Below the pieces are notes generated by a model. It searched no databases. It saw nothing but the letters and a program-made list of their open reading frames with translations, and was not told where the DNA came from. The translations under genes were made by a program, and so were the position numbers. Positions 6,467 through 60,597 of a stretch of 64,000 nucleotides of DNA are shown piece after piece (the first letter of the stretch is position 1; each line of letters opens with the position of its first letter). Source of the stretch: Variovorax sp. YR216 (GTDB lineage Bacteria > Pseudomonadota > Gammaproteobacteria > Burkholderiales > Burkholderiaceae_C); contig NZ_FNRO01000012.1 in assembly GCF_900107745.1 (NCBI RefSeq), forward strand, positions 1 through 64,000, in the 5' to 3' direction.

Positions 6467-6495
6467 TTGAATGGTTAGACCATTATAGATATACT
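6467..6495 (+). promoter_or_regulatory. Promoter with FadR-type operator in its spacer
   Basis: TTGAAT (6467-6472), 17-bp spacer and TATACT (6490-6495) form a good sigma70-type promoter for the thiolase-like gene at 6528. The operator TGGTTAGACCA (6472-6482) occupies the start of the spacer, a classic repressor position, and also sits in front of the minus-strand gene at 6448. Confidence 0.7.
6472..6482. promoter_or_regulatory. FadR-type operator TGGT-N3-ACCA (site 1)
   Basis: TGGTTAGACCA, perfect 4+4 palindrome around a 3-bp centre, between divergent genes starting at 6448 (-) and 6528 (+). It is one of fourteen such sites in the window. Confidence 0.8.
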
Positions 6496-6527
6496 GGCCT
6501 GCCATTACAACCAAGGGGACCCACCCA

Positions 6528-7721
6528 ATGACTCGTCGAGTTGCCATCATCGGCACCAGCGCGATCCCGGTCGGCCGCCACCAGACCAAGGCGGAAGAGC
6601 CGCTGCAGGTGCTGGAGCAGGAGATCATGACGAAGCTGGTGGTCGAGGCGGTCGCGGATGCCGGCGTCGATAAGAAGGACATCGGCAGCCTGGTGCTGAC
6701 GCTGCCCAGGCCCTACACGCTGCAGAAGTATTTCTCCACCTTCCTGGTCAGCCACCTGCGCCTGCAATGCACCGGCAGCGTGCTGGAGGTGATGGGCAAT
6801 GGAATGACAGGCGCCGTCTGCTTCGACCGGGCCTGCGACGAAATCCTGCTCGGCCGCACCGAGGTCGCACTCGCGCTGGGCGTCAACATGGAGGCGGCCA
6901 CGCCGGCCTCCGAGCATGCGATGAGCAGCATGCGAACCACGGGCGACGTGGACTTCCATGCCTCAGGCGGCTTCATCCCGATCAGCTGGTACGCCATGGA
7001 CGCCATGCGCTACATGCACGAATACGGCGCCACGCGCGAGCAACTCGGCGCGGTCGCGGTCAAGAACCGCTGGCATGCATCGATGAACCGCCTGGCGCAG
7101 TACCGCAAGCCGATCACCCTGCCGGAGGTGTTGGACCAGCGACCGATCGTGGAGCCATTGGGCCTCTACGACGTACCAGGCCGCAGCGACGGCGCGGCCT
7201 GCCTGGTGCTGGCTTCGGAGGAAGTCGCGAAGTCGCTGGGCCGCCCCTATGCGCTGGTGCGCGGGCGCGGCTTCTGCCACGACGGCTCGCACCAGATCAA
7301 CGAGGTGCCGAACGACATGACCGAGCTGATTGCCGCCAAGCAGGCGGCATCCACTGCATATGCGCAGGCCGGAATCTCCGCCAAGGACATCGACCTCGCC
7401 GAGTTCTATGCGCCCTGCACCATCGTCGAGGTGCTGGTGAGCGAGGCGGTGGGCTTCTTTGGGCGCGGGGAAGGTGCACCGGCCGCCGCCGACGGCCGCA
7501 CCAAGCTGGGCGGGCAGATCCCGATCTCGACCTCCGGCGGACTGACCTCGCGCGGCCATCCGGCGTACGTCACCTCGCTCTACAACTACTGCGAGATGGC
7601 AGACCAGCTGCGCGGCCGGGCCGGCGAACGCCAGGTCGCGAACGCGCGACTGGGCCTGACCACCGGCGAACTCGGCAACTACAACGCCGCCCTTGTCCAC
7701 GTGATGGAGGCCCAACGATGA
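6528..7721 (+). CDS. Thiolase-like protein without nucleophilic cysteine (Ltp2/SCP2-type, probable retro-aldolase subunit)
   Basis: 397 residues, thiolase superfamily, lipid-transfer/SCP2-thiolase branch. Where true thiolases have the nucleophile in a C-x-S-G motif, this protein has Gly92-Met-Thr-Gly95, so a normal thiolysis reaction is unlikely. A conserved tyrosine (Tyr294, in EFYAPC) stands where the steroid side-chain aldolase Ltp2 uses a tyrosine, and GHP is kept near residue 345. Ltp2 works as a complex with the DUF35 part of ChsH2 and splits beta-hydroxyacyl-CoAs by retro-aldol cleavage. The next gene is a DUF35 protein overlapping by ATGA, which supports the same complex here. First of four such pairs in the window. 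Confidence 0.82.
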   Translation: MTRRVAIIGTSAIPVGRHQTKAEEPLQVLEQEIMTKLVVEAVADAGVDKKDIGSLVLTLPRPYTLQKYFSTFLVSHLRLQCTGSVLEVMGNGMTGAVCFDRACDEILLGRTEVALALGVNMEAATPASEHAMSSMRTTGDVDFHASGGFIPISWYAMDAMRYMHEYGATREQLGAVAVKNRWHASMNRLAQYRKPITLPEVLDQRPIVEPLGLYDVPGRSDGAACLVLASEEVAKSLGRPYALVRGRGFCHDGSHQINEVPNDMTELIAAKQAASTAYAQAGISAKDIDLAEFYAPCTIVEVLVSEAVGFFGRGEGAPAAADGRTKLGGQIPISTSGGLTSRGHPAYVTSLYNYCEMADQLRGRAGERQVANARLGLTTGELGNYNAALVHVMEAQR

Positions 7722-8140
7722 CGCTCGAGATGATCCCCGTGGCGCGTGCGCGCGCCTATCCACCGCGCGTGTCGGCCTTCACGCAGACCTTCTGGGAAGG
7801 CCTGCGCGACGGCCGCTGGCAGAGCACCTGCTGCGAAGCCTGCGGCAAGTTCACCTTCCCGCCGAAGCCGGTGTGCCCGCATTGCTGGTCGCCGCGGATG
7901 CAATGGAAAGAGCTGGAACAGCGCGGCACGCTCTATTCGTGGACGCGCATCCATGCCGCACCCAAGGTGTTCGTGGACGAAGCGCCCTATGCCGTCTGCG
8001 TGGTCGACCTCGACATCGGCCTGCGCATCGCCACCCGACTCGTCGAACGCGAGGGCAAGCCGTTCGAGTGCGGCATGCCGATCGAGCTCGTCGTCCTGCA
8101 GTACGAGGACGGGCCGCTGCTCGCCTCGCGTCCGCTCTAG
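7718..8140 (+). CDS. DUF35 OB-fold protein with zinc ribbon (thiolase partner)
   Basis: 140 residues, starting at the ATG that overlaps the thiolase-like stop codon (ATGA). A rubredoxin-like zinc ribbon has four cysteines, Cys39-x2-Cys42 and Cys53-x2-Cys56, followed by an OB fold beginning near GTLYSWTRIH. Such proteins are obligate partners of SCP2-type thiolases and of the aldolase Ltp2, where they contribute to acyl-CoA binding and complex stability. The strict coupling to the thiolase-like gene predicts a two-protein enzyme. A downstream gene follows after 16 bp. Confidence 0.88.
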   Translation: MTLEMIPVARARAYPPRVSAFTQTFWEGLRDGRWQSTCCEACGKFTFPPKPVCPHCWSPRMQWKELEQRGTLYSWTRIHAAPKVFVDEAPYAVCVVDLDIGLRIATRLVEREGKPFECGMPIELVVLQYEDGPLLASRPL

Positions 8141-8156
8141 CAAAAGGAGTTGTCCC

Positions 8157-8483: not shown

Positions 8484-8510
8484 ACGGGGCGAGGGGCTAG
8501 AATCCGCGCC

Positions 8511-9269
8511 GTGAGCCACGCCGACCTCCGCACGAAAGAAGCCTTCGAATCCTCCCTTGGGTTCGAGCCCATCGCACCCTCGCGCGCGTTCGAAGAGATC
8601 GCGGCGCAGATCCGCGACCTGGTGGCCACCGGCCGGCTCAAGCCCGGCGATCGCCTCCCGGCCGAGCGCGATCTTTCCGCCAAATTCAAGGTCAGCCGCA
8701 ACACCCTTCGCGAGGCGCTGCGCGCCCTCGAGTTGAGCGGAATGATCGAACTGCGCAAGGGCGCCGCCGGCGGCGCCTTCGTGCTTCCGGGCAACTCCGG
8801 CGTCGTCGTCAATGGCCTGCGTGATCTCTATCACCTCGGCGCCATCAAGCCCGAGCACCTCACGGAAGCGCGGGTGTGGCTCAGCGAGATCGTGGTGCGC
8901 GTGGCCTGCGAGCGCCTGACGGAAGAGGACCTGAAGGCACTCGAAGCCAACGTGGCGCAGGCCACCAAGGCCGACAAGGCCGGTAACTTCCAGGAACGCG
9001 CGGACCTGCACCGCGAGTTCCACAACCTGCTGGCCGCCGCCACCCGGAACCCCATCATCGAGATCACGATGGAAGGCGTGATGGAGGTGATGCGCGAGTT
9101 CGTCAAGGCCATCGGCCCAAGCGACAACCCCTATACCCTGCCCTCGCGCCGCCGGCTGATCAAGCACCTTCGTGCACGCGACGCCGATGCAGCGGTCGCC
9201 GAGATGAACAAGTTCCTGGAACGCCTGCAGGCGAACTACATGGAACTCTGGAACTCGCGCAAGCAGTAA
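8511..9269 (+). CDS. GntR-family regulator, FadR subfamily (FCD domain)
   Basis: 252 residues with a GTG start preceded by GAGGGG. The winged helix-turn-helix is at about 28-92 (GRLKPGDRLPAERDLSAKF, SRNTLREALRALELSG, GGAFV wing) and the all-helical FCD ligand-binding domain at about 110-240. FadR-subfamily members bind TGGT-N3-ACCA-type palindromes and let go when an acyl-CoA or carboxylate binds the FCD domain. It is the last gene of the operon from site 1, so it is probably autoregulated. Close in sequence to the regulator at 21687-22505 (both with REALRALELSG, a KAIGP segment and RLLKHLRARD/RLIKHLRARD). Confidence 0.92.
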   Translation: MSHADLRTKEAFESSLGFEPIAPSRAFEEIAAQIRDLVATGRLKPGDRLPAERDLSAKFKVSRNTLREALRALELSGMIELRKGAAGGAFVLPGNSGVVVNGLRDLYHLGAIKPEHLTEARVWLSEIVVRVACERLTEEDLKALEANVAQATKADKAGNFQERADLHREFHNLLAAATRNPIIEITMEGVMEVMREFVKAIGPSDNPYTLPSRRRLIKHLRARDADAAVAEMNKFLERLQANYMELWNSRKQ

Positions 9270-9270
9270 G

Positions 9271-11818: not shown

Positions 11819-11825
11819 CGCCCGG

Positions 11826-13058
11826 TCAGAACTGGTAGCCGTACTTGGCGGCGACTTCCTTGAAGCCGAACACGCGCGCGGCGTTCTCGCCCAGCACCTT
11901 GCGGCGCGACACCTCGCTCATATGGCCCATCTGCCGTTCGATGGCCTGGGCCGAGTGCGGCCAGGTGCCTTCGTGGTGCGGATAGTCGTTGGCCCACATG
12001 AAGTTGTCCTGCAGGCCGTGCTCCTCCATCAGGCCGAGGCCTGCGCGGTCCTCGCCGAAGGTCGCGAAGCCGCGCGCCTTGAAGTAGTCGGAAGGCAGCA
12101 TCTTCAGCTTCGGGCGGACCCAGAAGTGGTGCTTCAGATAGGCCTCGTCCATTGCGTCGAGCATCCATGGCACCCAGCCGATCCCGGCCTCGACACTGCC
12201 GAAGCGCAGTTCGGGGAAGCGCTCCGCAACACCCGAGGCACAGATGTTCACCAGCGGTTCCAGCGTCGGCGACAGCGAGTGCACGACGTAGTTCACAACC
12301 GCACCGCCATTGCCGCGCGTGGTGCGCGGGTCCTTGCCGGTGGAAACGTGGAACGTGGCCGGCACGCCCGCCTCGACGAATCGGGCCCACATCGGGTCGA
12401 ATTCGACCTTGTTGTAGTTGAGCTCGTTGGTCTTGGGTGGGCCGAAGAGCGGCTTGCAAGGCAGCGTGAAGTGACGGAAACCGAGCTTCAGGCAACGGTC
12501 GATTTCCTTGAGCGTCGCCTCGATGTTGCCGGTGGCCAGCGCCGCGGCGGGCGACAGGCGTTCGACGTGGGGGCCGAAGTTCTCCCAGGCCCAGGTGTTG
12601 TAGACCTCGCACTGCGCATGGGCAAAGTCAGGGTCGAACGTGTACCACATGCCCAGGCCCTTGCCCGGGAAGATGATCTCGCCGTCGATGCCGTCGAGCT
12701 CCAGATCGTGCAGCCGCTGCTCGACGCTCGGACCGCGCTCGGATGCGGTGGCGCCTGCCTTGGAGCGGGCCAGGTCCTCGCCCTCCAGCTTGGCAAGGAT
12801 CAGGCGATCGGGCTGCTCCGACGCTTCCATCTTGCGCCACTGCACGCCCTTCTCGTCGATCCACACCTTGGGCAGGCGGTCGCGGTACTTGGCATCGATG
12901 CGCTCGGCCCACAGGTTGCCCGGCTCGTTGGCATGCGTGTCCGCCGAGATCATCAGGTACTTGTTGGCGGCTCCGGGCTGAGGCGACTTCTCCCAGCCGG
13001 CGGAGCCGGGGGTGTTCAGGCGCCATTGATTGGCTTCGTTGACGACGATCTCGGTCAT
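11826..13058 (-). CDS. Amidohydrolase-family metal-dependent hydrolase (TIM barrel)
   Basis: 410 residues from the ATG at 13058, preceded by a GAGGA box; an upstream in-frame ATG at 13121 falls inside the operator and is rejected. Amidohydrolase_2-type signature: ISADTHANEP at the N-terminus (Asp-x-His metal site), a histidine in TFHVST near mid-protein, and ANDYPHHEGTWPHS near the C-terminus, where Asp and His complete the site. Homologues hydrolyse or decarboxylate ring compounds, or open lactones. It is the first gene of the operon down to 9271 and the only one in the window preceded by two operators. Confidence 0.82.
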   Translation of the reverse strand: MTEIVVNEANQWRLNTPGSAGWEKSPQPGAANKYLMISADTHANEPGNLWAERIDAKYRDRLPKVWIDEKGVQWRKMEASEQPDRLILAKLEGEDLARSKAGATASERGPSVEQRLHDLELDGIDGEIIFPGKGLGMWYTFDPDFAHAQCEVYNTWAWENFGPHVERLSPAAALATGNIEATLKEIDRCLKLGFRHFTLPCKPLFGPPKTNELNYNKVEFDPMWARFVEAGVPATFHVSTGKDPRTTRGNGGAVVNYVVHSLSPTLEPLVNICASGVAERFPELRFGSVEAGIGWVPWMLDAMDEAYLKHHFWVRPKLKMLPSDYFKARGFATFGEDRAGLGLMEEHGLQDNFMWANDYPHHEGTWPHSAQAIERQMGHMSEVSRRKVLGENAARVFGFKEVAAKYGYQF

Positions 13059-13087
13059 GACGGGGGTCCTCGGTGGGATTGTGTGGA

Positions 13088-13098
13088 AGGTTGAACCA
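13088..13098. promoter_or_regulatory. FadR-type operator, one mismatch (site 2a)
   Basis: AGGTTGAACCA, a one-mismatch version of TGGT-N3-ACCA. Its centre is 22 bp (two helical turns) from that of site 2b, so two dimers would lie on the same DNA face. Confidence 0.6.
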
Positions 13099-13109
13099 CT
13101 AGATTTGAA

Positions 13110-13120
13110 TGGTTTGACCA
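13110..13120. promoter_or_regulatory. FadR-type operator (site 2b)
   Basis: TGGTTTGACCA, perfect half sites, upstream of the amidohydrolase operon and downstream of the GntR gene that ends at 13187. This pair is the only operator location that is not at a divergent gene junction. Confidence 0.8.
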
Positions 13121-13186: not shown

Positions 13187-13945
13187 TCAGCGTGTCTTCT
13201 TGGGAGCCGGCGCCGGCTCTGCAGTGGGCACGGCGTCCATGCCCTCCTGCACGATCGTCAGGTATTCGTCCATGCCCTTGGCCGCGGCCTTCGCGTCGCG
13301 CGCCCGCATCGCCTTGAGGATGCGGCGGCGCACCGGGACCAGTTCAGGGCGCGCCTTGCGCCCGGTGCGGTCGATCACGTAGCGGATGATGTCCGACAGC
13401 GAATCCACCAGCATCGCGAGCACCTCGTTGCGCGTGGCGCGGGCGATCAGGCCGAAGAAGCGCACGCCCTCGTCGGCGCGCTGGAGAAGGTCCTCGCTCT
13501 TCTCGATCTCCGTCATGTTCTGCTCGATGGCGGCAAAGTCTTCCTCTGTGGCGCGCTCGCAGGCCAGCTCGATCACCATGCCATTGATCAGCCGCCGCGC
13601 TTCGGCCAAGCCAGCCAGCGACACGCGGCCGAGGATCATCAGGTCCTGCAGCGACTGGGTGAGCAGCGCCGGGTTGCCGTCACGGATGAAAGCGCCGCCC
13701 TTCACACCCTTCTGCAGGGAAACGACGCCGGAGATCTCGAGCGTGCGCAACGCCTCTCGCACCGCCGGCCGACTGACCTGAAACTCCACCGCCAGGTCGC
13801 GTTCGGCCGGCAGCTTGTCGCCGGGCTTGAGCACGCCGGAAGCGAGGCGCTTTCGGATCTGCTCGCAGATCTCCTCGAAGACGCGGCGCGTCTTCACCTC
13901 CTGGAAGGACAGCTGCGGAATGGGTTGCATGACTGGGCTCGACAT
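13187..13945 (-). CDS. GntR-family regulator, FadR subfamily (FCD domain)
   Basis: 252 residues from the ATG at 13945; an alternative ATG at 13930 would remove five residues. The winged helix lies at about 16-80 (RRVFEEICEQIRKRL, PAERDLAVEFQVSRPAVREALRTLEISG, GGAFIRDG) and the FCD domain at about 95-240. The C-terminal half, ARPELVPVRRRILKAMRARD, matches the FCD half of the flavin reductase fusion at 5492-6448 and suggests common ancestry of these sensor domains. It is transcribed away from the operon starting at 14037, with an operator in between, and stands directly upstream of the tandem operators, so both autoregulation and control of neighbours are likely. Confidence 0.92.
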   Translation of the reverse strand: MSSPVMQPIPQLSFQEVKTRRVFEEICEQIRKRLASGVLKPGDKLPAERDLAVEFQVSRPAVREALRTLEISGVVSLQKGVKGGAFIRDGNPALLTQSLQDLMILGRVSLAGLAEARRLINGMVIELACERATEEDFAAIEQNMTEIEKSEDLLQRADEGVRFFGLIARATRNEVLAMLVDSLSDIIRYVIDRTGRKARPELVPVRRRILKAMRARDAKAAAKGMDEYLTIVQEGMDAVPTAEPAPAPKKTR

Positions 13946-14012: not shown

Positions 14013-14023
14013 TGGACTGACCA
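14013..14023. promoter_or_regulatory. FadR-type operator, one mismatch (site 3)
   Basis: TGGACTGACCA between divergent genes at 13945 (-) and 14037 (+). It has one mismatch in the left half site. TTGCAA (14007-14012) precedes it like a -35 element. Confidence 0.65.
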
Positions 14024-14036
14024 TTACACTCCACTA

Positions 14037-19935: not shown

Positions 19936-19946
19936 TGGTTGGACCA
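19936..19946. promoter_or_regulatory. FadR-type operator (site 4)
   Basis: TGGTTGGACCA between divergent genes at 19912 (-) and 20012 (+). A TATACT box (19963-19968) to its right could serve the SDR gene. Confidence 0.8.
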
Positions 19947-20011
19947 ATGCTATCACAGTCCATATACTCGCGCGCTCTTCATTCACCGTTTTGCGAAGGA
20001 GTCCGCAATCC

Positions 20012-20767
20012 ATGCCCATCCAGAGATCCGTACTTGTCACCGGCGGTGCGGCCGGCATCGGCCTGGCCATCGCTCGCGGCTTTGCGGGGCTTGGGCACCG
20101 CGTGCTGCTGGCCGATGTGAGCGAGACCGTTCACGCCGCCGCGGAACGGCTGTCGACGCCGCAGGCACCGGTGCATTCGCAGCTGGCCGATGTTGGCGAT
20201 GAAGAACAGGTGCTTCGCGTCACGGCGCGCCTGCAGGATCTGTTCGGCGGATGCGACATCCTGATCAACTGCGCCGGCATCTCGAGCAAGCGCAACGGCC
20301 AGCCGGTTCCGCCCACCGAGGTGACCACTGCCGACTGGCAGCGCGTGTTGGGCGTCAATCTCACTGCACCCTTCCTGCTCTCTCGGGAGCTGATCCCGGG
20401 CATGCGGCAGCGGGGCTTCGGGCGCATCGTCAATATCGCTTCGCGCGCCGGGCGCACTTTCGTCGCACCGGCCGGCGTCGACTATGCCGCCTCCAAGGCG
20501 GCGCTGATCGGCCTCACGCGGCATCTTGCCGGCACCTATGCGCCGGACGGCATCACGGTCAACTGCGTGGCACCGGGCCGGATCGAGACCGCGCTTTCAT
20601 CGCTTTCCAGTCCTGAGGTCATCGCGGCGGCGACGCGAGCCATACCGATGGGGCGACTGGGGACGACCGACGAAGTCGCGGCTGCCGTGCTCTTCCTTGC
20701 GAGCGAGGCGGCGTCCTATGTCACCGGTGCATGCGTCGACGTGAACGGCGGCGTGTTCATGGCCTGA
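20012..20767 (+). CDS. Short-chain dehydrogenase/reductase
   Basis: 251 residues, classical SDR. The start at 20012 follows GAAGGAG. Cofactor motif TGGAAGIG (10-17), the NCAG strand end near 87-90, catalytic Ser144, Tyr158 and Lys162 (YAASK), and a C-terminal GACVDVNGG typical of FabG-like enzymes. An aspartate after the second strand (LLADVS) favours NAD(H) over NADP(H). Likely oxidises or reduces a hydroxy/keto group of an acyl-CoA or ring intermediate. Single-gene transcription unit opposite a thiolase-like operon; convergent with the next SDR. Confidence 0.88.
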   Translation: MPIQRSVLVTGGAAGIGLAIARGFAGLGHRVLLADVSETVHAAAERLSTPQAPVHSQLADVGDEEQVLRVTARLQDLFGGCDILINCAGISSKRNGQPVPPTEVTTADWQRVLGVNLTAPFLLSRELIPGMRQRGFGRIVNIASRAGRTFVAPAGVDYAASKAALIGLTRHLAGTYAPDGITVNCVAPGRIETALSSLSSPEVIAAATRAIPMGRLGTTDEVAAAVLFLASEAASYVTGACVDVNGGVFMA

Positions 20768-21627: not shown

Positions 21628-21638
21628 TGGTCCAACCA
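21628..21638. promoter_or_regulatory. FadR-type operator (site 5)
   Basis: TGGTCCAACCA between divergent genes at 21622 (-, SDR) and 21687 (+, GntR). It lies within a few bases of the SDR start codon. Confidence 0.8.
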
Positions 21639-21686: not shown

Positions 21687-22505
21687 ATGCCCAGCCCCCT
21701 CGACCGCGGCGACTTCGACGTCGTCCCCATCAATCCGCAACGCATCTTCCAGGAGGTGGCCAACCAGTTGCGACGGCTGATCTCCGAAGGAAAGCTGCGT
21801 CCGGGCGACAAGCTCCCGCCCGAGCGGGAACTGGCCAAGCGCTTCGGCGTCAGTCGCAACACCATGCGCGAAGCTCTGCGCGCGCTGGAACTCAGCGGAC
21901 TCATCGAGCTGCGCCTCGGTGCGACCGGCGGTGCGTTCGTGCTGCCGGGCAGCTCCAACGCCGTGGTGGCGGGCATGCGAGATCTCTATTTCCTCGGCGC
22001 GATCACGCCGCAGCACCTCACTGAGGCACGCATCGCGGTGAGCGCCGCGGTGATCCGCGTCGCATGCGAACGCATCACCGATGAGGAGATCGATGCGCTG
22101 GAAGCCAACGTGGCGGCCGCCGCACAGGCAAAGCAAGCCGGCGATTTCGAAGAGCGCACCCGCCACCACCAGGCCTTCCACGTGATGCTCGCGCGGACCA
22201 CGCACAACCCCGTCCTGATCGCGACGACCGAAGGAATCATGGAGATCACTCGCCAGTTCGTGAAGGCGATCGGCCCGACCGACCAGCAGGACTACACGCA
22301 CCCTTCGCGCAAGCGCCTGCTCAAGCACCTGCGCGCGCGCGACACGGAGAAGGCGGTGGCCGAGATGAGCTCGGCCCTGACCAAGCTTCATCGCGGCTAC
22401 ATGGTGAATGCCGTGGCACCCGGAACTACCGCGCCAGCACCACCCCGGCCGCCTCGCGATCCCAAGCCTGCGAAAGCCCGGCCTCGAGCTCCTGGCGCAG
22501 CTTGA
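21687..22505 (+). CDS. GntR-family regulator, FadR subfamily (FCD domain)
   Basis: 272 residues: winged helix at about 22-84 (LRPGDKLPPERELAKRF, SRNTMREALRALELSG, GGAFV) and FCD domain at about 100-235. It ends in an unusual Pro/Ala/Arg-rich tail of about 35 residues (from MVNAVAPGTT on) that is encoded largely by DNA overlapping, on the opposite strand, the last 80 bp of the acyl-CoA synthetase gene. Close relative of the regulator at 8511-9269. Divergent from an SDR with an operator in between, so probably autoregulated. Confidence 0.92.
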   Translation: MPSPLDRGDFDVVPINPQRIFQEVANQLRRLISEGKLRPGDKLPPERELAKRFGVSRNTMREALRALELSGLIELRLGATGGAFVLPGSSNAVVAGMRDLYFLGAITPQHLTEARIAVSAAVIRVACERITDEEIDALEANVAAAAQAKQAGDFEERTRHHQAFHVMLARTTHNPVLIATTEGIMEITRQFVKAIGPTDQQDYTHPSRKRLLKHLRARDTEKAVAEMSSALTKLHRGYMVNAVAPGTTAPAPPRPPRDPKPAKARPRAPGAA

Positions 22506-25130: not shown

Positions 25131-25154
25131 ATTCTAAATGGTCCAACCATTCAA
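25126..25154 (-). promoter_or_regulatory. Minus-strand promoter for the Bug/acyl-CoA synthetase operon
   Basis: Read on the minus strand: TTGAAT (25154-25149), 17-bp spacer, TATTAT (25131-25126). The operator fills the first part of the spacer exactly as at site 1. Its -10 overlaps that of the plus-strand promoter by five bases. Confidence 0.7.
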
Positions 25155-32591: not shown

Positions 32592-32602
32592 TGGTAGGAC
32601 CA
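32592..32602. promoter_or_regulatory. FadR-type operator (site 7) with adjacent -10 box
   Basis: TGGTAGGACCA between divergent genes at 32584 (-) and 32694 (+). A perfect TATAAT (32604-32609) lies two bases to the right, and TTGCAT (32579-32584) to the left at a 19-bp spacing could be its -35 element. Confidence 0.78.
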
Positions 32603-35583: not shown

Positions 35584-35594
35584 TGGTAAGACCA
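35584..35594. promoter_or_regulatory. FadR-type operator (site 8)
   Basis: TGGTAAGACCA between divergent genes at 35561 (-) and 35655 (+). It lies across the expected +1 of the minus-strand promoter. Confidence 0.8.
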
Positions 35595-37657: not shown

Positions 37658-37668
37658 TGGTAAGACCT
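37658..37668. promoter_or_regulatory. FadR-type operator, one mismatch (site 9)
   Basis: TGGTAAGACCT between divergent genes at 37639 (-) and 37723 (+). One mismatch in the right half site; it runs into a TATAGA box (37668-37673) on the plus strand. Confidence 0.65.
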
Positions 37669-41120: not shown

Positions 41121-41149
41121 ATTGTATGGTTCTACCATTTACATCACAA
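41121..41149 (-). promoter_or_regulatory. Minus-strand promoter with operator site 10
   Basis: Read on the minus strand: TTGTGA (41149-41144), 17-bp spacer, TACAAT (41126-41121), for the EthD-type gene at 41094. The operator fills the spacer next to the -10 box. Confidence 0.62.
41127..41137. promoter_or_regulatory. FadR-type operator (site 10)
   Basis: TGGTTCTACCA between divergent genes at 41094 (-) and 41158 (+). Perfect half sites; the only centre of the TCT type. Confidence 0.8.
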
Positions 41150-42144: not shown

Positions 42145-42894
42145 CTATTTGGCAGCTCGCGTCGGGGGGCGCTTGTGTTTCTTGTCGCGCTCGCTGATGA
42201 GATATTCCGTCACCCTTCGCAGATGCTCTGCCATAGCGTCGGAGGCTGCCTGCGCATTGCGCTTTCGCATGAGGTCGAGCACGCGCTGGCGCACCACCAT
42301 GATGTCCTTGTTGGGGCGCGGGTCCACGGTGGCCAGCATCCCCCGGTACACCTCCGACAGGGCATCCACCATCATCAGCACCAGCGGGTTGTGCGTGGCC
42401 TGCGCGATGAGCCGGTAGAACTCGATCACCGACTGCGTATTGCGCGACGCGCGCCCCAGGCGAAACAGATCGGCGTGCAGGTCGATGTCGCGCTGGATCG
42501 CGTCGAACTCCTCGTTGGTCGCGCGCGGGCAGGCGAGACGGATCGCCACGCAGATGATCTCGGTGCGCGCCTCCATCACGTTCTCCAGAGAGGCCTGCGC
42601 GAGCGACACCATGTCCTGCACCGTCTGTGCAAGCCCGCCGCTGCCGCCGTTCCTGATGAAGAAGCCGCCCTGGATGCCCTTGCGCGCCTCCACCACGCCC
42701 GAGACCTCCAGGCTGCGCAACGCGTCGCGTGCCGCCGCGCGGCCGATGCCGAAGCGCTCGGCCAGCTCGCGCTCGCCGGGGAGCTGATCGCCCGGCTTCA
42801 GTTCGCCGCTCATCAACTGTTCACGAATGCGGTCGCACACGGCCTCGAAGCCACGGCGCGTGCGCACGGGTTGGAAGAGCGATTCGTTTGTCAT
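42145..42894 (-). CDS. GntR-family regulator, FadR subfamily (FCD domain)
   Basis: 249 residues: winged helix about 13-75 (RRGFEAVCDRIREQLMSG, LPGERELAERFGIGRAAARDALRSLEVSG, GGFFIRNG) and FCD domain about 90-235. The recognition helix differs (GIGRAAARDALRSLE, compared with VSRNTLREALRALE), so its half-site preference may differ slightly from the other three. It is transcribed away from the nine-gene acyl-CoA dehydrogenase operon with operator site 11 in between, the usual layout for a local repressor. Basic C-terminal tail (DKKHKRPPTRAAK). Confidence 0.92.
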   Translation of the reverse strand: MTNESLFQPVRTRRGFEAVCDRIREQLMSGELKPGDQLPGERELAERFGIGRAAARDALRSLEVSGVVEARKGIQGGFFIRNGGSGGLAQTVQDMVSLAQASLENVMEARTEIICVAIRLACPRATNEEFDAIQRDIDLHADLFRLGRASRNTQSVIEFYRLIAQATHNPLVLMMVDALSEVYRGMLATVDPRPNKDIMVVRQRVLDLMRKRNAQAASDAMAEHLRRVTEYLISERDKKHKRPPTRAAK

Positions 42895-42922: not shown

Positions 42923-42951
42923 TTGCATATTCATTGGTTGAACCATAAGAT
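42923..42951 (+). promoter_or_regulatory. Plus-strand promoter of the ACAD operon, operator in spacer
   Basis: TTGCAT (42923-42928), 17-bp spacer, TAAGAT (42946-42951). The expected start of transcription, near 42958, is only one or two bases before the ATG at 42960 and no ribosome-binding site is present, so this mRNA may be leaderless. Confidence 0.6.
42935..42945. promoter_or_regulatory. FadR-type operator (site 11)
   Basis: TGGTTGAACCA between divergent genes at 42894 (-, GntR) and 42960 (+, acyl-CoA dehydrogenase). It ends directly at the -10 box of the plus-strand promoter. Confidence 0.8.
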
Positions 42952-51077: not shown

Positions 51078-51095
51078 ACTCCAAGTAGACAGAGC

Positions 51096-51790
51096 ATGCA
51101 TAACACCACCCGACGCAGGGCCCTGTGTGCCTTGGCCGCTGCCTCGCTCGCATTCGCCGGCGCTGCCAGCGCGCAGGACAGCACCCGCTGGCCCGACAGG
51201 CCGCTGCGCATCGTGATCCCCACGCCGCCGGGTGGCGCACTGGACGGCACCGCGCGCCTGATCGCCGAGCGCCTCGCAGGTTCACTCGGCCAGCCGGTGG
51301 TGGTCGACAACCGTGCCGGGGCCAACGGCACCATCGCCTATGGCGTGGTCGCCAAGGCGCCGCCGGACGGCTACACGAGGCGCCGGCCGTACAGGCGGCA
51401 CTTGGTGGACAGATCGCGGTGGTGATCGGCGCGGCCGGCACCCTCGCCGCCCAGGCACAGGCGGGTCAGATGAAGCTGCTGGCCGTCGCGCTGCCCAACC
51501 GGCTGAAGGACTCTCCGGACGTGCCCACTTTCGGTGAGCTGGGCTTTCCCGCGGTGAGTCTCTCGGGCTGGTCGGTGATGGCGGTCCCCTCGGGCACGCC
51601 CAAGCCGATCGTGGACCGGCTGTCGTCCGAGATCACCCGCATCGCTCAGACACCCGAGATATCGGCGCGAATCTTCGCCTACGGATTCCAGCCCGAGGGC
51701 GGCAGCTCCGACGCCGCCCGCCGCTTCGTGCAGGAAGAGACGACCCGCTGGACCGACGCCATCAAGGCGACCGGCATCACGATGGAGTGA
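51096..51790 (+). pseudogene. Bug-family solute receptor disrupted by an internal deletion
   Basis: The first 93 codons are a normal Bug N-terminus: a signal peptide, then WPDRPLRIVIPTPPGGALDGT, GQPVVVDNRAGANGT and PPDGYT. At about 51376 the sequence jumps straight to the part that should read GEAPAVQAALGGQIAVV, but in another reading frame; it then continues to a normal C-terminus (GYPAVSLSGW-like region, TGITME). About 110 residues are missing and the frame is broken, so translation ends after 109 codons at 51425. Last gene of the ACAD operon. Either a real inactivating deletion or an assembly error; reads across 51370-51385 would tell. Confidence 0.85.
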
Positions 51791-52611
51791 GAAGGCCCTC
51801 GCGGGCCCAGCGCCTGCCGGCCAGGCGCCCCGAGCGCGACAACGTGATGTACGCGTCGCACCCGTCGGCCCCACCGAAGCAGATGTTGGTGGTGGAGCGA
51901 TCCGGCATCGGAACCCGCTCGACCAGTGCGCCATTCGGGTCGACGCGGCGGCCCGCCGCATCGGCTTCGGCCCGCAAGACGGCATCGTTCAGGTCGAAGG
52001 CGCGGCGCGCGAGCGCAAGGCTGGCGCGCAACGCCAGCGGAGCATTGGCTGCCGCCAGCGCAGCGATACGCATCGCTTCGGGGATCAGGTGTTCAGGCGC
52101 CATCACTCGATTGACCAGGCCGAGGCGCAGTGCCTCGGAGGCGTCGATCGGCTCGCCGGTGGCGATCATCTCCAGCGCCGCGCCGCGCGGAATGCTGCGC
52201 GGCAGCCGCCACACGCCACCTGCGGTCGCAGCCAGACCGCGCTTGACCTCCGGCAGGGCGAACACTGCATCGACCGATGCGATCGCGAAGTCGCAGGCCA
52301 GCACGAGCTCGAACCCGCCGGCGACCGCCGCGCCGTTCACCGCCGCGATCCGCGGCTTCTCGCGCCGGGCATGCACGAAGCCAGCGAAACCGCCTTCGGA
52401 TGTGGAGCGTCCGCCGGGCGCGGAGCCGCTCGCCAGTTCCTTGGGATCGGCACCGGCGCAGAAGGCCTTGTCGCCGGCACCGGTCAGGATCGCAACCTGC
52501 ACCGAAGCGTCGCGCTCGACCTCGGCCACGATTGATCGCGTTTCGCGCCTGGGGCCGGTTGATCGTGATGAGCGCGACGCCGTCGTGGTGCTCGCGCAGC
52601 ACGACGCTCAT
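51777..52611 (-). pseudogene. Enoyl-CoA hydratase remnant fused to a gluconolactonase (SMP-30) C-terminus
   Basis: Three pieces can be read. From ATG 52611: SVVLREHHDGVALITINRPQ, a normal crotonase N-terminus. At about 52530 the frame shifts and some 15 residues are missing; the frame then continues VERDASVQVAILTGAGDKAFCAGADPKEL through AAVNGAAVAGGFELVLACDFAIA and on to AEADAAGRRV. At about 51942 it turns abruptly into DPNGALVERVPMPDRSTTNICFGGADGCDAYITLSRSGRLAG, which is the C-terminus of an SMP-30/gluconolactonase-type protein. So two deletions have merged parts of two genes. Product unlikely to be active. Overlaps the CoA-transferase stop by ATGA and the broken Bug gene by 14 bp. Confidence 0.85.
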
Positions 52612-53810
52612 TTCACGGCTCCGCCCGTGCGCAGGCGCGCGATCTCGTCCTCCGCATAGCCGGCTTCACTCAACACCTCGTCGGTGTGCTCGCCGATGCC
52701 GGGCGCATGGCGCGGATAGGTCTTGTCCGCGCCCTCGACCAGGAAAGGGCTGCTGACCGTCAGTCCAGTGCCCGGAATCCCTTCGCCCGGCACCAGTGCG
52801 CCGCAGAGGCGCATCTGTTCGTCACCAAGCGCATCGCCACTGCGCGCGACCACGCCGACCGTGAGCCCTTCGTCGCCGAAGCGCGAGGTCCACTCCGCGC
52901 TGTCGCGCGCCTGAAAGACATCGTCCAGTAGCGCGGCGAGCGTCGGTGCGTTCTCGCGTCGCGCCGGCGTCGCGGCGAAGCGCGGGTCCTGCGCAAGCGC
53001 GGGACGCTCGATCGCACGCAGAAAGGCCTCCCAGTCGCGCTCTTCGGTCACGAGGCTGAGGATGAACCAGCGGCCGTCGCGGCAGCGATAGAAGTTGGTG
53101 AGCGCGTTGCGCGGCTGGCTGCGCGGTTGCCGGTACACCAGCCGTCCGCCGACCAGCATGCCCTGGATCGCCATCGCATTGGCCCACGCGCCGTTGGCCA
53201 GCAGCGAGGTGCTCACCATGCCGCCTCTGCCGGTGCGCTCGCGCGCATACAGGCCGGTGACGATCGCCGCGAACAACGTGACTGCAGTGGGCTGGTCGCC
53301 CAGGCCATTGGCCGGATTCGCGGGCGGCCCTTCGGGGTCGGGCCGCGTCAGGTCTGCCAGACCGCTGCGTGCCCAGTAGGTGGTGGCATCGAAGCCCGGC
53401 TTGCCGGCCTCGGGGCCGGTTTCTCCGTAGCCGGTGAGCGATGCATACACGAGTCGCGGATTGAGCTCGCGAATCGTCTCCCAGGCCAGGCCCAGACGGG
53501 CACGCACAGGCAGCGGGTAGTTGGTGATGAGCACATCGGCCTCGCGCACGAGGCGATGCAGCACCGCCTGGCCCTCTGGCTTCTTGAGATCGAGCGCGAT
53601 GGCTCTCCGGCTGCGCGCTCCTTGCATCCAGAGATAGTTGTGCTCGGAGTACGCGAGATTCGGATTGAGGACCGTCTTGCGAAAGCCGTCGCCCTCGGGC
53701 ACCTCGATCTTGATCACATCAGCGCCGAAGTCGGCGAGGATCGTCGCCGCAGCAGGGCCGGCGATGAAGCTCGCGACGTCGAGGACCCTGAGGCCGTTGA
53801 AGACGCTCAT
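52608..53810 (-). CDS. CaiB/BaiF-family CoA-transferase
   Basis: 400 residues, start at ATG 53810 overlapping the stop of the lipocalin-like gene. Motifs: GLRVLDVASFIAGPAAATILADFGADVIKIE, RRAIALDLKKPEGQAVL, PRLVYASLTGYGETGPEAGKPGFDATTYWARSG. The nucleophile position after the GxGxQP region reads GLGDQPTAVTLFAAIVTGLYARERTG, with Asp in GDQP as the likely CoA-carrying residue. It lacks the racemase GHD motif. Predicted to move CoA to a pathway acid. Intact, although its neighbours on both sides show deletions. Confidence 0.9.
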   Translation of the reverse strand: MSVFNGLRVLDVASFIAGPAAATILADFGADVIKIEVPEGDGFRKTVLNPNLAYSEHNYLWMQGARSRRAIALDLKKPEGQAVLHRLVREADVLITNYPLPVRARLGLAWETIRELNPRLVYASLTGYGETGPEAGKPGFDATTYWARSGLADLTRPDPEGPPANPANGLGDQPTAVTLFAAIVTGLYARERTGRGGMVSTSLLANGAWANAMAIQGMLVGGRLVYRQPRSQPRNALTNFYRCRDGRWFILSLVTEERDWEAFLRAIERPALAQDPRFAATPARRENAPTLAALLDDVFQARDSAEWTSRFGDEGLTVGVVARSGDALGDEQMRLCGALVPGEGIPGTGLTVSSPFLVEGADKTYPRHAPGIGEHTDEVLSEAGYAEDEIARLRTGGAVK

Positions 53811-54856
53811 CGCGGTGCGTCCGCTCGCTGCTCCGAAATCGGCACGCCGTCGTTCATCAGGTCGCAGTACTCGGTCATTCCCAGCACGGTGCGGCCTTCG
53901 CAGGTGAACTCCGTCATGCTTTCCGTGATCCGCGTGTAGGTCTTGAAGTCGCTGGCCCCGACCTTCCGGTGCCGCAGCGGCACGGTGGTCACGGTCCGGC
54001 CCTTCATCACGTAGGTCTTGCGCTCGGTCGTGACCCATGCGGTGAGGCCCTTCGGAATCCATGCCTCGTCGTACTCGGTCTCGATGCGTCCGTCGATCAC
54101 CGACTCGTAGACACCGTCGCGAAGCACGTTGCCGCTGATGCGGTTCGGCCCACCCTCGGGGCGCCCCTTGATGGACAGCAGGATGCCGAAGTCGCGCGAG
54201 AAGGTGACGGGCAGCCATTTGTACCAAAAGAAGCTGTGCCAATGCCGGGGCCCCCAGGACTTGTCGCGATACCCGGTCCCGCCGATGAGATCGTGCTTCA
54301 CGCCGTCCACGGTGATGTGCCCGTTCACCGCCATGTTCTGCTCGGTATGCCCGCGATACACCGCGCGCTCGGGGTCGAGTTCGATCGGGCGCCCCTGCAT
54401 GTCGACGATCTCGCCGCCATGCATCGGCGAGACGCCTTCGAAGTCCAGCGCAATCGAAGCGGGCCGCTTGGGATAGCGCTTGAACGCTGCGCTCGGATCG
54501 GCCATCGCCAGCGGATCGTCCATCACCAGCAGGTCGCCTTCGTAGCGCACGCGATGCCGCTTGAACGGCTCGATCACCTCGAAGCTCATGCCCGCGGCTT
54601 CCATCCGCTCGTTGCCGGTGATGCCGGGGCGGGCAAACATGAAGCCCACCCGGCCGTCGGGCAGGTACACGCAGCAGGTCATCTCCGCATGGCCCTCGTT
54701 GGGCCGGTTGCCGACGCGAACCCATGCGCCGATGCGGCGCGCGGAATCGAAGGCATTGAAGTACATGCTCTCGTTGTAGTTGCCCACCGGCTCGGGCGGG
54801 TGCGTGTATTCGTCGCGTGGGTCCAGCTTGAGCCAGGTTTCGGGCGGCATGTACAT
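53807..54856 (-). CDS. CrtC/AttH-like lipocalin-fold protein (DUF7064-like)
   Basis: 349 residues from ATG 54856. It belongs to a family that shares the GTGYRDKSWGPRHW motif (about residues 195-208) with hydroxyneurosporene synthase CrtC and AttH, a tandem-lipocalin fold. The N-terminus (DPRDEYTHPPEPVGNYNESMYFNAFD) and the VNGHITVDGVKHDLIGG region are characteristic. Homologues cluster with terpenoid- and steroid-catabolic genes; the reaction (hydration of a double bond is possible) is not established here. ATGA overlap with the CoA-transferase. Only 14 bp separate it from the ACAD fragment. Confidence 0.7.
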   Translation of the reverse strand: MYMPPETWLKLDPRDEYTHPPEPVGNYNESMYFNAFDSARRIGAWVRVGNRPNEGHAEMTCCVYLPDGRVGFMFARPGITGNERMEAAGMSFEVIEPFKRHRVRYEGDLLVMDDPLAMADPSAAFKRYPKRPASIALDFEGVSPMHGGEIVDMQGRPIELDPERAVYRGHTEQNMAVNGHITVDGVKHDLIGGTGYRDKSWGPRHWHSFFWYKWLPVTFSRDFGILLSIKGRPEGGPNRISGNVLRDGVYESVIDGRIETEYDEAWIPKGLTAWVTTERKTYVMKGRTVTTVPLRHRKVGASDFKTYTRITESMTEFTCEGRTVLGMTEYCDLMNDGVPISEQRADAPR

Positions 54857-54870
54857 GAGGGGGAATCCTT

Positions 54871-55023
54871 TCAATGTGTCGCCAGTTCGAGGCGGGCGAT
54901 CTGGTTGCGATGCACTTCGTCGGGGCCGTCGGCGATGCGCAGGCCACGCGCCTGCGCATACGAGCGCGCAAGGATGAAGTCCTGGGACAGACCGAATCGG
55001 GGAAAGTACCGAGAGAGGCGCCG
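54871..55023 (-). pseudogene. C-terminal fragment of an acyl-CoA dehydrogenase
   Basis: Fifty codons read directly after the TAG of the quinone oxidoreductase gene, in the same frame, and match the end of ACAD10/11- or LvaC-type dehydrogenases: [20 protein letters not shown], then [18 protein letters not shown]. The N-terminal 350 or so residues are gone and no start codon remains. Deletion has joined this stub to the oxidoreductase gene. With the kinase fragment upstream it records a former LvaA-LvaC-like pair. Confidence 0.85.
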
Positions 55024-56019
55024 CTAATGCGGAACGCGAAGCCAGGCCTTGCCCACTGTGGAGCGGCCTTCGAGCGCGGCCAAGGCCGCCTGTGCGTCGT
55101 CGAAGTCGAACGAAGGCCCGGGCATGAGGCGGATGCGGCCTTCGGCATGCCAGCCATAGACCTCGCGCGTGAGCTGCGCGGCCAGCGCGATGTCGCGCTT
55201 GCGCACCTCTCCCCATAGCACGCCAACCGCACTGGCGTTGTGAAGGAGCAGCCTGTTCGCCGGCAACTGCGTGAGCGTGCCGGCCGCGAAGCCGATGACG
55301 AGGTAGCGCGCGCCAAAGGCAAGGCAGCGCAGGCTCTGCGCGCCGATCTCGCCGCCCACGGGGTCGTAGATCACGTCGGCGCCGCCGGGCGCGACCTTGC
55401 GAAAGGCATCGACCCAATCGGGATCGCCGTAGTCCAGCGCAGCATCCGCACCCGCATCGAGACACGCTTGCACCTTCCGTGGTCCGCCCGCGGTGGCGAT
55501 CACACGCGCGCCCATCAGCTTGCCGAGTTGCAGCGCCGCACTGCCGACGCCACCGGCCGCGGCATGCACGAGCAGCGTCTCGCCCGGCTGCAGGCGCCCG
55601 GCCATGCGCAGGGCGAACAGTGAAGTCGGATAGTTGCTGCGCAGCGCGAGCGCGTCGCCCGGGTCGATGTCCTGTGGAATCGCGACCGCTTCGCTGCACG
55701 GCACGAGGGCGTATTGCGCGAAGCCACCCTGCCGCGAAGAACTCGCGACGCGCGTGCCAACCGGGAGATCGCCGCCTTCCCCCGCCACGATGGTGCCCAG
55801 CACTTCGGAGCCGGGGGTGAAGGGCAATGGCGGCTTGACCTGATACTTGCCGCGCACGATCAAGGTGTCACCAAAGGCGAGGCCCGCGGCCTCCACGCGC
55901 ACCAGGTATTGGTCGGGGCCGGGTCGCGGCACCTCCACGTCGCGAAGATGCATCTCGCCACGGTCGCTGATTTCCTCGACGCGCCATGCACGCATCGAGA
56001 GGGGCAGGTTGTTTGTCAT
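55024..56019 (-). CDS. Zinc-free quinone oxidoreductase / enoyl reductase-like MDR protein
   Basis: 331 residues from ATG 56019, preceded by GAAGGAG. MDR fold without zinc ligands: PGPDQYLVRVEAAGLAFGDTLIVRG, TPGSEVLGTIVAGEGG, cofactor motif VHAAAGGVGSAALQLGKLMG, and GGADVIYDPVGGEIGAQSLRC. Full-length and apparently intact. Likely reduces an enone, quinone or enoyl ester with NADPH. Its ATG overlaps the stop of a decayed kinase fragment. About 40 percent similar by eye to the MDR protein at 41158-42141. Confidence 0.87.
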   Translation of the reverse strand: MTNNLPLSMRAWRVEEISDRGEMHLRDVEVPRPGPDQYLVRVEAAGLAFGDTLIVRGKYQVKPPLPFTPGSEVLGTIVAGEGGDLPVGTRVASSSRQGGFAQYALVPCSEAVAIPQDIDPGDALALRSNYPTSLFALRMAGRLQPGETLLVHAAAGGVGSAALQLGKLMGARVIATAGGPRKVQACLDAGADAALDYGDPDWVDAFRKVAPGGADVIYDPVGGEIGAQSLRCLAFGARYLVIGFAAGTLTQLPANRLLLHNASAVGVLWGEVRKRDIALAAQLTREVYGWHAEGRIRLMPGPSFDFDDAQAALAALEGRSTVGKAWLRVPH

Positions 56020-56231: not shown

Positions 56232-56391
56232 TCAACCCATCGAGCGCGGTCGTCTCGGCCACATCGAACCCACTTGCTGCCGTGAATGTTGGGGTGGATG
56301 AATTATTCACTTTGTCGTTTAATCTATGGTTGAACCAATGATCACAACGAATCGTATAGCACTCGAATCCATCACACAAGGAGACATCGCA
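56232..56391. other. Intergenic region with operator site 12
   Basis: Contains the decayed 5' end of the kinase remnant (to 56310), operator site 12 and the leader of the Bug gene at 56392. No other gene seen. Confidence 0.55.
56327..56337. promoter_or_regulatory. FadR-type operator (site 12)
   Basis: TGGTTGAACCA between the decayed minus-strand operon and the plus-strand Bug gene at 56392. TTGTGA read on the minus strand (just right of the site) is a possible -35 element. Confidence 0.78.
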
Positions 56392-57363: not shown

Positions 57364-57373
57364 TCCTCAGCGG

Positions 57374-58971: not shown

Positions 58972-58975
58972 GCTT

Positions 58976-59773
58976 TCAATCCTTGTTCGGCCAGCGGAAC
59001 TGCGCCGGCTCCTTGCCCGCGAAGCGACGGATCGCCTCACGAAAGTACGCGCTGGACGAGGCAATCGCCTGCGAGGACGCCTCCATGTCCAGCATGGTCT
59101 CCAGATCGCTCTGCAGCGTCGAGGCCAGCGCGCGCTTGGAGAGGCTGAATGCGGTCGGCGACGCATTCGCGAGACTTCGGGCCAGCTCCATTGCACGCGG
59201 CATCAGGGCCTCCGGTGCGAGAGCCTCCAGCGCGAGGTTCATGCGCAAGGCCTCGTCGGCGCCGAACTCGCGCGCCGAGTAGATGAGGTCCTTGGCACGC
59301 TGCAGTCCCACTACGCGCGGCAACTGGTACCAGGCTCCGACATCGGGCACGAGGCCGATTCGATGGAACACCATGGCCAGCCGCGCGCGCGTGCTCACCA
59401 GCACGATGTCGGCATAGAGCGCCATGCTGAGGCCGGCACCGAATGCGACCCCATCGACTGCGGCAATCAGCGGCTTGTCCAGCGCCGCCAACGCGCGTGC
59501 CAGTTCGGCGTAGCGCGCCATGCCCGCACGTCGCTGCTCGACCGTGCGCGCGCCGCCGTCGGCCATGCCCTTGACGTCGCCGCCTGCACAAAAGTCGCCG
59601 CCCGCACCCGTCAGCACGACGGCGCGGATGTCATCGTCGGCACGCAGCGCCCGCAACGCGGCAACGAGCGCGTCGGTGGTCAGGATGTCGATCGCGTTCT
59701 TTGCCGACGGCCGGTTCAGCGTGAGGACGGCCACGCCGTCCGCGCGCTCCAGGAGGACGCTGTCGCCCGTCAT
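58976..59773 (-). CDS. Enoyl-CoA hydratase/isomerase family protein
   Basis: 265 residues, crotonase fold: VAVLTLNRPSAKNAIDILTT, DFCAGGDVKGM (oxyanion hole), AVDGVAFGAGLSMALYADIVLVSTRARLAMVFHRIGLVPDVGAWYQLPR. One of the two catalytic glutamates is replaced (FHRIGLVPD, with Asp at the position used by isomerases), which is the pattern of enoyl-CoA isomerases and the crotonase at 62209-63006. The two are sisters (GLVPDVGAWYQLPRVVGLQRAKD and GLVPDLGALYLLPRVVGLQRAKE). One base from the SDR stop. Confidence 0.9.
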   Translation of the reverse strand: MTGDSVLLERADGVAVLTLNRPSAKNAIDILTTDALVAALRALRADDDIRAVVLTGAGGDFCAGGDVKGMADGGARTVEQRRAGMARYAELARALAALDKPLIAAVDGVAFGAGLSMALYADIVLVSTRARLAMVFHRIGLVPDVGAWYQLPRVVGLQRAKDLIYSAREFGADEALRMNLALEALAPEALMPRAMELARSLANASPTAFSLSKRALASTLQSDLETMLDMEASSQAIASSSAYFREAIRRFAGKEPAQFRWPNKD

Positions 59774-59774
59774 G

Positions 59775-60548
59775 TCAGAGGCTGATGTGGAAGCCGCCGT
59801 TCACGCCCAGATGCTGGCCCGTGATGTAGCTCGATCCATCCGACAGCAGGTAGCACACGCTCTTCACCACCTCGCCCGGCGTAGACCAGCGGCCCAATGG
59901 AATCTGCGCGAGCATCTGGTCGCGGAACTTCTCGCCGCGCACGACTTCGGTCATCGGCGTTTCGACCACGCCGAAGCAGATCGAGTTGGTGCGGATGTTG
60001 TAGCGACCCCATTCGCGCGCGGCCGTCATGGTCATGCCCAGCATGCCGGCCTTGGCCGCCGCGTAGTTGATCTGGCCGATCGAACCCTTGCGGCCCGCGT
60101 CGGACGAGATGTTCACGATCGAGCCGCCCGTCTTGTCTCCGCCCTTGGCCCGCTCGACCATGTGCCGGCCCGTGGCGCGCATCCAGTAGAAGGAACCGGT
60201 GAGGTGCACATCGATCACCTCCTGCCACTGCTGGTCGGTCATCTTGTCGATCATGGCGGGGCGGATGATGCCGGCGTTGTTGACAAGGCCGTGCACCGCG
60301 CCGAACTTGGCGACCGCTTCTGCAACCGCGCGGTCTGCAACGGCCGGGTCAGCCACGCTGCCTTGCACCGCAAGCACGCGCGCTTGCGGCAGCGGCGAGA
60401 CAGCGGCATCGAGCGTCTGTCCATTGAGGTCGACGGCCACCACGTTGGCGCCGAGGTCGATGGCCAGTTCCACAATGCCCTTGCCGATGCCCTGGCCGGC
60501 CCCGGTGACGACGATGGTGCGCCCTTGCAGGCTGACGATGGGATCCAC
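59775..60548 (-). CDS. Short-chain dehydrogenase/reductase (FabG-like)
   Basis: 257 residues. Cofactor motif TGAGQGIG (15-22), an Asp after the second strand (VVAVDLNG) favouring NAD(H), NNAG, a Ser in NISSDAG, Tyr and Lys in YAAAK, and the C-terminal GQHLGVNGGFH. Probably a 3-hydroxyacyl-CoA dehydrogenase or ring alcohol dehydrogenase. First gene of the four-gene operon SDR, crotonase, MaoC hydratase, phosphatase, which together could carry out hydration and oxidation of an enoyl-CoA. Divergent from the thiolase-like gene at 60626 with operator site 13 in between. Confidence 0.9.
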   Translation of the reverse strand: MDPIVSLQGRTIVVTGAGQGIGKGIVELAIDLGANVVAVDLNGQTLDAAVSPLPQARVLAVQGSVADPAVADRAVAEAVAKFGAVHGLVNNAGIIRPAMIDKMTDQQWQEVIDVHLTGSFYWMRATGRHMVERAKGGDKTGGSIVNISSDAGRKGSIGQINYAAAKAGMLGMTMTAAREWGRYNIRTNSICFGVVETPMTEVVRGEKFRDQMLAQIPLGRWSTPGEVVKSVCYLLSDGSSYITGQHLGVNGGFHISL

Positions 60549-60568
60549 TTTTGCTGCTCCTTGTTAGC

Positions 60569-60597
60569 TTGTTCGATGGTTGAACCAATGATATCCT
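60569..60597 (+). promoter_or_regulatory. Plus-strand promoter with operator site 13 in spacer
   Basis: TTGTTC (60569-60574), 17-bp spacer, TATCCT (60592-60597) for the gene at 60626. The operator occupies most of the spacer. Confidence 0.58.
60577..60587. promoter_or_regulatory. FadR-type operator (site 13)
   Basis: TGGTTGAACCA between divergent genes at 60548 (-) and 60626 (+). The same 11 bases occur at sites 11 and 12. Confidence 0.8.

Follow-up and report, generated by a model that had tools for sequence, protein, structure and literature searches.

A conserved series of probable FadR-subfamily operators and its regulator clade in a catabolic gene cluster of Variovorax sp. YR216

Results

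Operator-like palindromes at the divergent junctions of the cluster

The first 64,000 nucleotides of contig NZ_FNRO01000012.1 of Variovorax sp. YR216 (NCBI RefSeq assembly GCF_900107745.1; this whole stretch is hereafter the window, and the contig C8) hold a real, conserved series of FadR-subfamily operators together with its own clade of GntR-FCD regulators. Very probably the two make up a regulon or network of the FadR subfamily that takes in about 62 window genes, grouped into 25 inferred transcription units, and ends at 66-68 kb of the contig. We rate this as very probable because the flanked form of the site is nearly confined to the cluster, its arms are conserved among relatives, the encoded regulators form one clade, and this clade and the operator co-occur across genomes.

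The core palindrome TGGTNNNACCA (TGGT-N3-ACCA) occurs in 11 exact copies in the window, compared with a mean of 0.29 and a maximum of 2 among 100 dinucleotide shuffles. All 11 positions given in a preliminary description of this DNA were correct, as were its one-mismatch positions 13088, 14013 and 37658. Since 21 matches with up to one mismatch were found where 10.8 are expected, one-mismatch sites alone carry little weight and need other evidence. With gene calls based on codon usage within the window, to which GntR gene 21687 was added by hand, sites were found in 12 of 12 divergent gaps, in none of 13 convergent gaps and in a single one of 39 tandem gaps, the double site at 13.1 kb. The claim that every divergent junction has a site and that convergent ones lack it was thus borne out, with the qualification that the junctions at 14.0 and 37.7 kb have one-mismatch sites only. 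The pair at 13088 and 13110, likewise present, lies in a tandem gap ahead of the 11826-13058 operon and not at a divergent junction. The predicted operators of the window, listed without strand, are as follows:

6472-6482: operator; divergent junction between 5492-6448 (-) and 6528 (+); strong promoter-like elements overlap it on both strands
13088-13120: operator pair spaced 22 bp, 13110 being exact and 13088 having one mismatch; tandem gap ahead of the 13058-9271 operon
14013-14023: one-mismatch operator; ahead of GntR gene 13187 and the 14037 operon
19936-19946: operator; divergent junction, exact core
21628-21638: operator; ahead of GntR gene 21687 and a divergent short-chain dehydrogenase gene
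25139-25149: operator; encodes codons 1-4 (MVQP) if the coenzyme A (CoA)-transferase gene starts at ATG 25138
32592-32602: operator; divergent junction
35584-35594: operator; abuts a TTGAC-N18-TATAAT-like promoter element on the minus strand
37658-37668: one-mismatch operator; five of six relatives have the same variant, L053 another base there
41127-41137: operator; divergent junction; among relatives the arms are identical and the spacer variable
42935-42945: operator; between GntR gene 42145 and an acyl-CoA dehydrogenase operon
56327-56337: operator; divergent junction; the left-hand gene is predicted to start 313 bp away
60577-60587: operator; divergent junction; G at one flank base

The series had been described as extending over 54 kb, which falls short: it covers about 60 kb, running on to an exact site at contig position 66,035 that shares a thirteenth divergent gap (65.9-66.1 kb) with a one-mismatch core at 65,948, and goes no further. 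The two divergent gaps that follow, near 77.3 and 80.0 kb, showed no site.

Genome-wide distribution and conservation

Of the 48 exact cores in the 7.37-Mb assembly (49 contigs), 11 fall in the window, a stretch equal to 0.87% of the genome (binomial P = 3.6e-13); the sequence context of every exact core outside the window was also inspected. Scores of 30-35 bits for the window sites are circular, as the scoring matrix was trained on those 11 sites. Site 66,035, outside the training set, scored 34.0 bits, and the best of the other 36 exact cores 18.6 bits, with 31 of the 36 below 7 bits. The flanked (WW) form, WWTGGTNNNACCAWW, matches exactly at 12 places genome-wide, 11 of them within 6.5-66 kb of C8 and one on contig C24; allowing one mismatch, it matches at 37 places, 15 of them in the cluster, against 11 for the reversed control pattern. 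Within the genome, then, the flanked operator form is nearly confined to this cluster. A genome scan had been named beforehand as the test that could overturn the regulon, and an equal density of sites ahead of unrelated genes was not seen. Weaker TGGT-N3-ACCA cores adjoin two other FCD regulator genes, at C24:73333 (18.6 bits) and C20:527258 (10.2 bits).

Conservation was assessed at five junctions in six relatives (four Variovorax, one of them a metagenome-assembled genome (MAG), one Xenophilus and one Pseudomonadota MAG), giving 29 comparisons with the window as reference. Differences from the window were found at 1 of 232 arm positions and at 1 of 116 positions in the two flanking bases on each side, as against 33 of 348 in the further flank out to eight bases and 13 of 87 in the spacer; the outer bases differed at 264 of 986 positions (arms versus outer bases, P = 1.6e-26; arms versus spacer, P = 2.5e-7). 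At the two junctions with only one-mismatch sites, such sites recur in relatives. For example, the 14013 site has a one-mismatch counterpart in the same place in relatives L065, L071, L074, L079 and L083, and is absent at that place in the WDL1 plasmid L125. Both hexamer parts of the promoter-like element at 35584 are invariant across seven aligned sequences.

A single clade of GntR-FCD regulators

The four GntR regulators that the preliminary description had recognized in the cluster all carry Pfam GntR and FCD domains, and each is encoded behind one of the sites:

8511-9269 (+): GntR-FCD regulator; last gene of the operon behind site 6472; GntR 2e-19, FCD 2.3e-19
13187-13930 (-): GntR-FCD regulator; behind site 14013; GntR 5e-19, FCD 4.8e-17
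21687-22505 (+): GntR-FCD regulator; behind site 21628; GntR 2.9e-20, FCD 8.2e-19
42145-42894 (-): GntR-FCD regulator; behind site 42935; GntR 3e-18, FCD 3.6e-16

In all four, an N-terminal GntR winged helix-turn-helix (PF00392; E 2.9e-20 to 3e-18) is followed by a C-terminal FCD domain (PF07729); FadR_C (PF07840), the acyl-CoA-binding effector domain of Escherichia coli FadR, was not matched in any of them in Pfam scans at E <= 0.001. A helical model of the 13187 protein (mean predicted local distance difference test (pLDDT) score 77.7) gave 2di3 as its best Foldseek match (E 4.5e-10, template modelling (TM) score 0.52). Neither Foldseek with this model nor a PDB profile search singled out a ligand class, the matches being FCD/FadR-type regulators.

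Among the genome's 39 FCD regulators, the four fall on one side of a single branch (support 98/99). Their alignment shows an invariant G..GG.F wing, and Arg, Arg and Gly occupy base-contact positions 28, 38 and 59, as placed by eye against a table in PMC4494728 with the register taken from the FadR sequence. The palindrome itself had been called FadR-like and fits the subfamily consensus given there, an A/T-rich palindrome of the form TKGT-N3-ACMA.

Most FCD domains possess metal-binding histidines, according to PMC6608401. Metal-dependent members of the TM0439 type have three, and the window regulators depart from this pattern at the third: that position is Arg in all four, whereas in the other 35 FCD regulators of the genome it is His in 33 and Trp in 2. 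The first metal-binding His is kept in two of the four. The FCD metal site is altered in all four regulators by loss of the third histidine.

Co-occurrence of regulator clade and operator

Across 61 genomes of the genus, the strict flanked pattern was found in 12 and a protein like the 8511 product (E <= 1e-45) in 12, with both in 10 (Fisher P = 4.5e-8); all eight genomes with at least three sites carry the regulator. Outside the main genus set, 10 of 11 plasmid records matching the 13187 protein at E <= 1e-40 were examined. Flanked operators occur near clade members (42-64% identity) at six of these ten loci, where at most 0.02 would be expected at each. Cupriavidus metallidurans CH34, Croceicoccus, Novosphingobium and Croceibacterium have two to three flanked sites each, and the Variovorax plasmids VAI-C and PDNC026 five and six, respectively; the VAI-C locus and the genus-set genome G213 are probably one genome.

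Two of the other four plasmids examined showed departures in the site. On Paraburkholderia plasmid L131, TGGTTCATCCA occurs three times with A/T flanks, at 471, 615 and 2124, in the same locus as an 8511-type regulator at 15010; possibly these copies represent a variant code of the same clade. Variovorax WDL1 plasmid L125 encodes at 20001-20759 an 88%-identical relative of the 13187 protein and has no exact operator core in 40.7 kb, which suggests an orphaned regulator or a changed site.

Gene content and a flavin reductase-FCD fusion

Behind the sites lie 62 of the 65 genes called in the window. The idea of a regulon of about 60 genes was largely right, with the reservation, taken up below, that the spacer hints at two sub-types of site. 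The units, and the one further FCD protein encoded among them, are:

3407-63006 (no strand): 62 predicted genes in 25 inferred units; a site at the head of each unit, 313 bp away for unit 51777-56019
5492-6448 (-): flavin reductase fused to an FCD sensor domain; behind site 6472; Pfam Flavin_Reduct 1.2e-41, FCD 3.6e-14

Families represented include type III CoA-transferases, TctC binding proteins, thiolase/OB-fold pairs, KstD-like flavin adenine dinucleotide (FAD) oxidoreductases, an acyl-CoA dehydrogenase pair, PimC/D-like dehydrogenases, ligases, hydratases and other dehydrogenases; a Rieske oxygenase gene lies past the window end. This content suggests a pathway for alicyclic or steroid-like compounds processed as CoA thioesters. 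Among 20 proteins scanned with NCBIfam, three passed the cut-off, all to general subfamily models (NF004789, NF009071 and NF006010), and the others showed sub-threshold kinship (KstD/ChcC-like, PimC/PimD-like, HsaB-like) or nothing. Rfam gave no match in the window at the gathering threshold.

The FCD domain of the fusion protein, together with that of a second flavin reductase fusion on contig 15, nests in the clade of the four regulators (99/97 in the FCD tree), and both fusions have Arg at the third metal-His position. Fusion homologues (E <= 1e-45) were found in 26 of the 61 genus genomes, so the fusion is not special to this cluster. An AlphaFold model made from the single sequence had a mean pLDDT of 44 and was not used.

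Seven full-length TctC binding-protein genes are present, and an additional one, at about 51097-51790 (+), seems to be disrupted: its start codon belongs to a 5' part, after which the C-terminal portion (profile positions 162-273) is called separately at 51419. TctA and TctB had no family match among the window proteins scanned with Pfam, a scan that did not take in the small gene 3407-3748. At the left edge of the operator series, 7-3159 holds a partial electron-transfer flavoprotein alpha gene at the contig start and an insertion-sequence transposase (DDE).

Discussion

Promoter geometry and proposed mechanism

Apart from 25139 and the left side of 56327, the centres of the sites are 19-97 bp away from predicted starts, and the site-bearing gaps, again without 25139, are 58-133 bp long (372 bp at 56 kb). 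Such spacing in short gaps would suit one dimer blocking two promoters, and strong promoter-like elements overlap some of the sites. The two junctions set aside do bear the sites described for them, with 56327 being distant from its left gene and 25139 overlapping the likely start codon of the gene on its right. With that codon placed in the operator, the message of the 25138 gene would be nearly leaderless. The reading MVQPFN is kept in L065, L074 and L079 (L074 departs after about a dozen codons), and a TATAAT-like element precedes the 25138 start in three of four sequences, the window included. The gene itself (25138-27693, +) encodes two CoA-transferase III stretches within one protein.

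Taken together, we propose that a clade of FadR-subfamily (GntR-FCD) repressors uses the palindromes as operators and that the cluster itself encodes four paralogues of this clade. A dimer bound at a single site between back-to-back promoters would shut both, and because the regulator genes lie behind the same sites, the network would be autoregulated. An intermediate of the pathway, an acid or CoA thioester that gene content suggests to be alicyclic or steroid-like, would bind in the FCD pocket and release the repressors, switching on about 25 transcription units. We consider this explanation as a whole probable; within it, binding of the DNA, repression as opposed to activation, the class of ligand and the sharing of sites by all four paralogues are inferences. 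An elaborated form, in which duplicated repressors of differing ligand preference compete for about 14 operators, successive intermediates switch the 60-kb pathway, and the flavin reductase sensor answers the same metabolites, seems to us rather unlikely.

Several points weigh against the proposed regulon. Gene starts and operon limits are predictions from our own calls, and the orthologous sites of close relatives are non-independent. The bare core is used more widely than the cluster, given the weaker copies beside two other FCD genes. In the genus-wide association, the regulator search scored 44 of the first-look candidates in many of the 61 genomes; in G211 (62% complete) and G222 the regulator is present and the pattern missing, and in G210 and G240 the reverse holds, although G240 has a 43% relative of the 13187 protein near its sites. 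No exact site was found at four of the ten plasmid loci that carry a clade regulator, namely those of Variovorax WDL1, Roseomonas, Paraburkholderia and Rhodococcus. Finally, a fixed promoter geometry was rejected: at 6472, 13110, 25139, 32592 and 35584 the first T of TGGT strikingly completes a -10 or -35 hexamer, but against block-shuffled flanks this was not significant over all offsets (P = 0.28), the values of 0.056 and 0.016 belonging to two offsets picked afterwards, and the geometry is at most anecdotal.

Alternative readings

The spacer sub-types of the 6-38 kb and 41-66 kb sites imply that what we treat as one operator may be two that overlap, which further tempers the proposal above. 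Under such a division, sites at 6-38 kb, with C beside one TGGT arm, would be read by the 13187 and 21687 proteins, and those at 41-66 kb, with A/T, by the 42145 protein. The C is present at nine of nine main sites in the former region and none of five in the latter, a pattern noticed after the fact and broken by the secondary sites 13088 (A/T) and 65948 (C). Among 108 distinct flanked sites assigned to the nearest clade GntR gene within 8 kb (flavin-reductase FCD matches left out), C and A/T sites numbered 11:1 for the 13187 type, 10:0 for 21687, 3:11 for 8511 and 13:16 for 42145; among sites no more than 300 bp from a gene end, the counts in the same order were 6:0, 5:0, 0:5 and 0:9, the five 8511-type sites all lying beside 55%-identical relatives of the 8511 protein. 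The close counts favour the division, but the wider ones are mixed, the rows include close orthologues, and proximity of a gene says little about which protein binds. Moreover, the window's own 8511 operon lies behind a C site, whereas distant 8511 relatives lie beside A/T sites, and the 41.1-kb site changes class among relatives, being C in L055 and L056. Position 39 of the helix-turn-helix, for which a link to these bases has been published, was rejected as the cause of the spacer types, as Asn39 proteins lie beside both. We regard two overlapping regulons as a tentative alternative, on the whole doubtful.

The proposal of cluster-encoded repressors is less strongly challenged by readings that detach the sites from the four regulators. 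One FadR-subfamily protein encoded elsewhere could control them, there being 35 further FCD regulators in the genome and the cores at C24:73333 and C20:527258 beside two of these; the near confinement of the flanked site to the cluster, and the tracking of site by clade across genomes and orders, make this very unlikely. The near-perfect coincidence of site and divergent junction within the cluster might instead indicate a generic element of promoter or chromosome architecture, unrelated to regulators. This we consider highly improbable, as the divergent junctions at 77.3 and 80.0 kb lack a site and 49 of the 61 genus genomes have no strict flanked match. As to the sign of control, some FadR-subfamily members activate, CitO being an FCD activator cited in PMC6608401. 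Most sites here lie in short divergent gaps, several overlapping promoter-like elements, an arrangement that blocking would fit better, and activation thus appears improbable.

Relation to known systems

The cluster resembles the regulons surveyed in PMC4494728 in combining a winged helix-turn-helix and an all-helical effector domain with an A/T-rich palindrome, single sites inside divergons, and regulator genes behind the same sites. That survey assigns 634 regulators to 1740 operons, or about 2.7 each; here, in contrast, a single type of site is common to about 25 adjacent units, with four paralogous regulators, and Arg takes the place of the third FCD metal histidine. The fusion has a parallel in AbHpaC, a flavin reductase whose C-terminal MarR domain relieves self-inhibition on substrate binding (PMC10816480). 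Both are flavin reductases carrying a sensor domain of transcription-factor type, with the difference that the added domain here is FCD, from the clade of the cluster's own regulators. Searches of the open-access literature listed no paper describing this cluster or a fusion of flavin reductase and FCD.

In the KstR regulon of mycobacterial cholesterol degradation, one palindrome likewise precedes most units of a large catabolic cluster, which has thiolase, KstD-like and acyl-CoA dehydrogenase genes as this one does. KstR, however, is a TetR protein with an unrelated site, and acts as one regulator where this cluster has four. Regulators and sites of these kinds are already known, so the finding is moderately surprising; what stands out is its scale, its tidiness, the set of paralogues and the sensor fusion.

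If the proposed regulon is correct, nearly all promoters of an uncharacterised catabolic island carry one and the same short palindrome, and the borders and gene membership of such islands would be readable from sequence in other genomes. The cluster would also be a natural setting in which to study whether paralogous repressors use an operator in common or split it between them, and the sensor domain that the flavin reductase has in common with them suggests that matching control may operate at the level of the enzyme.

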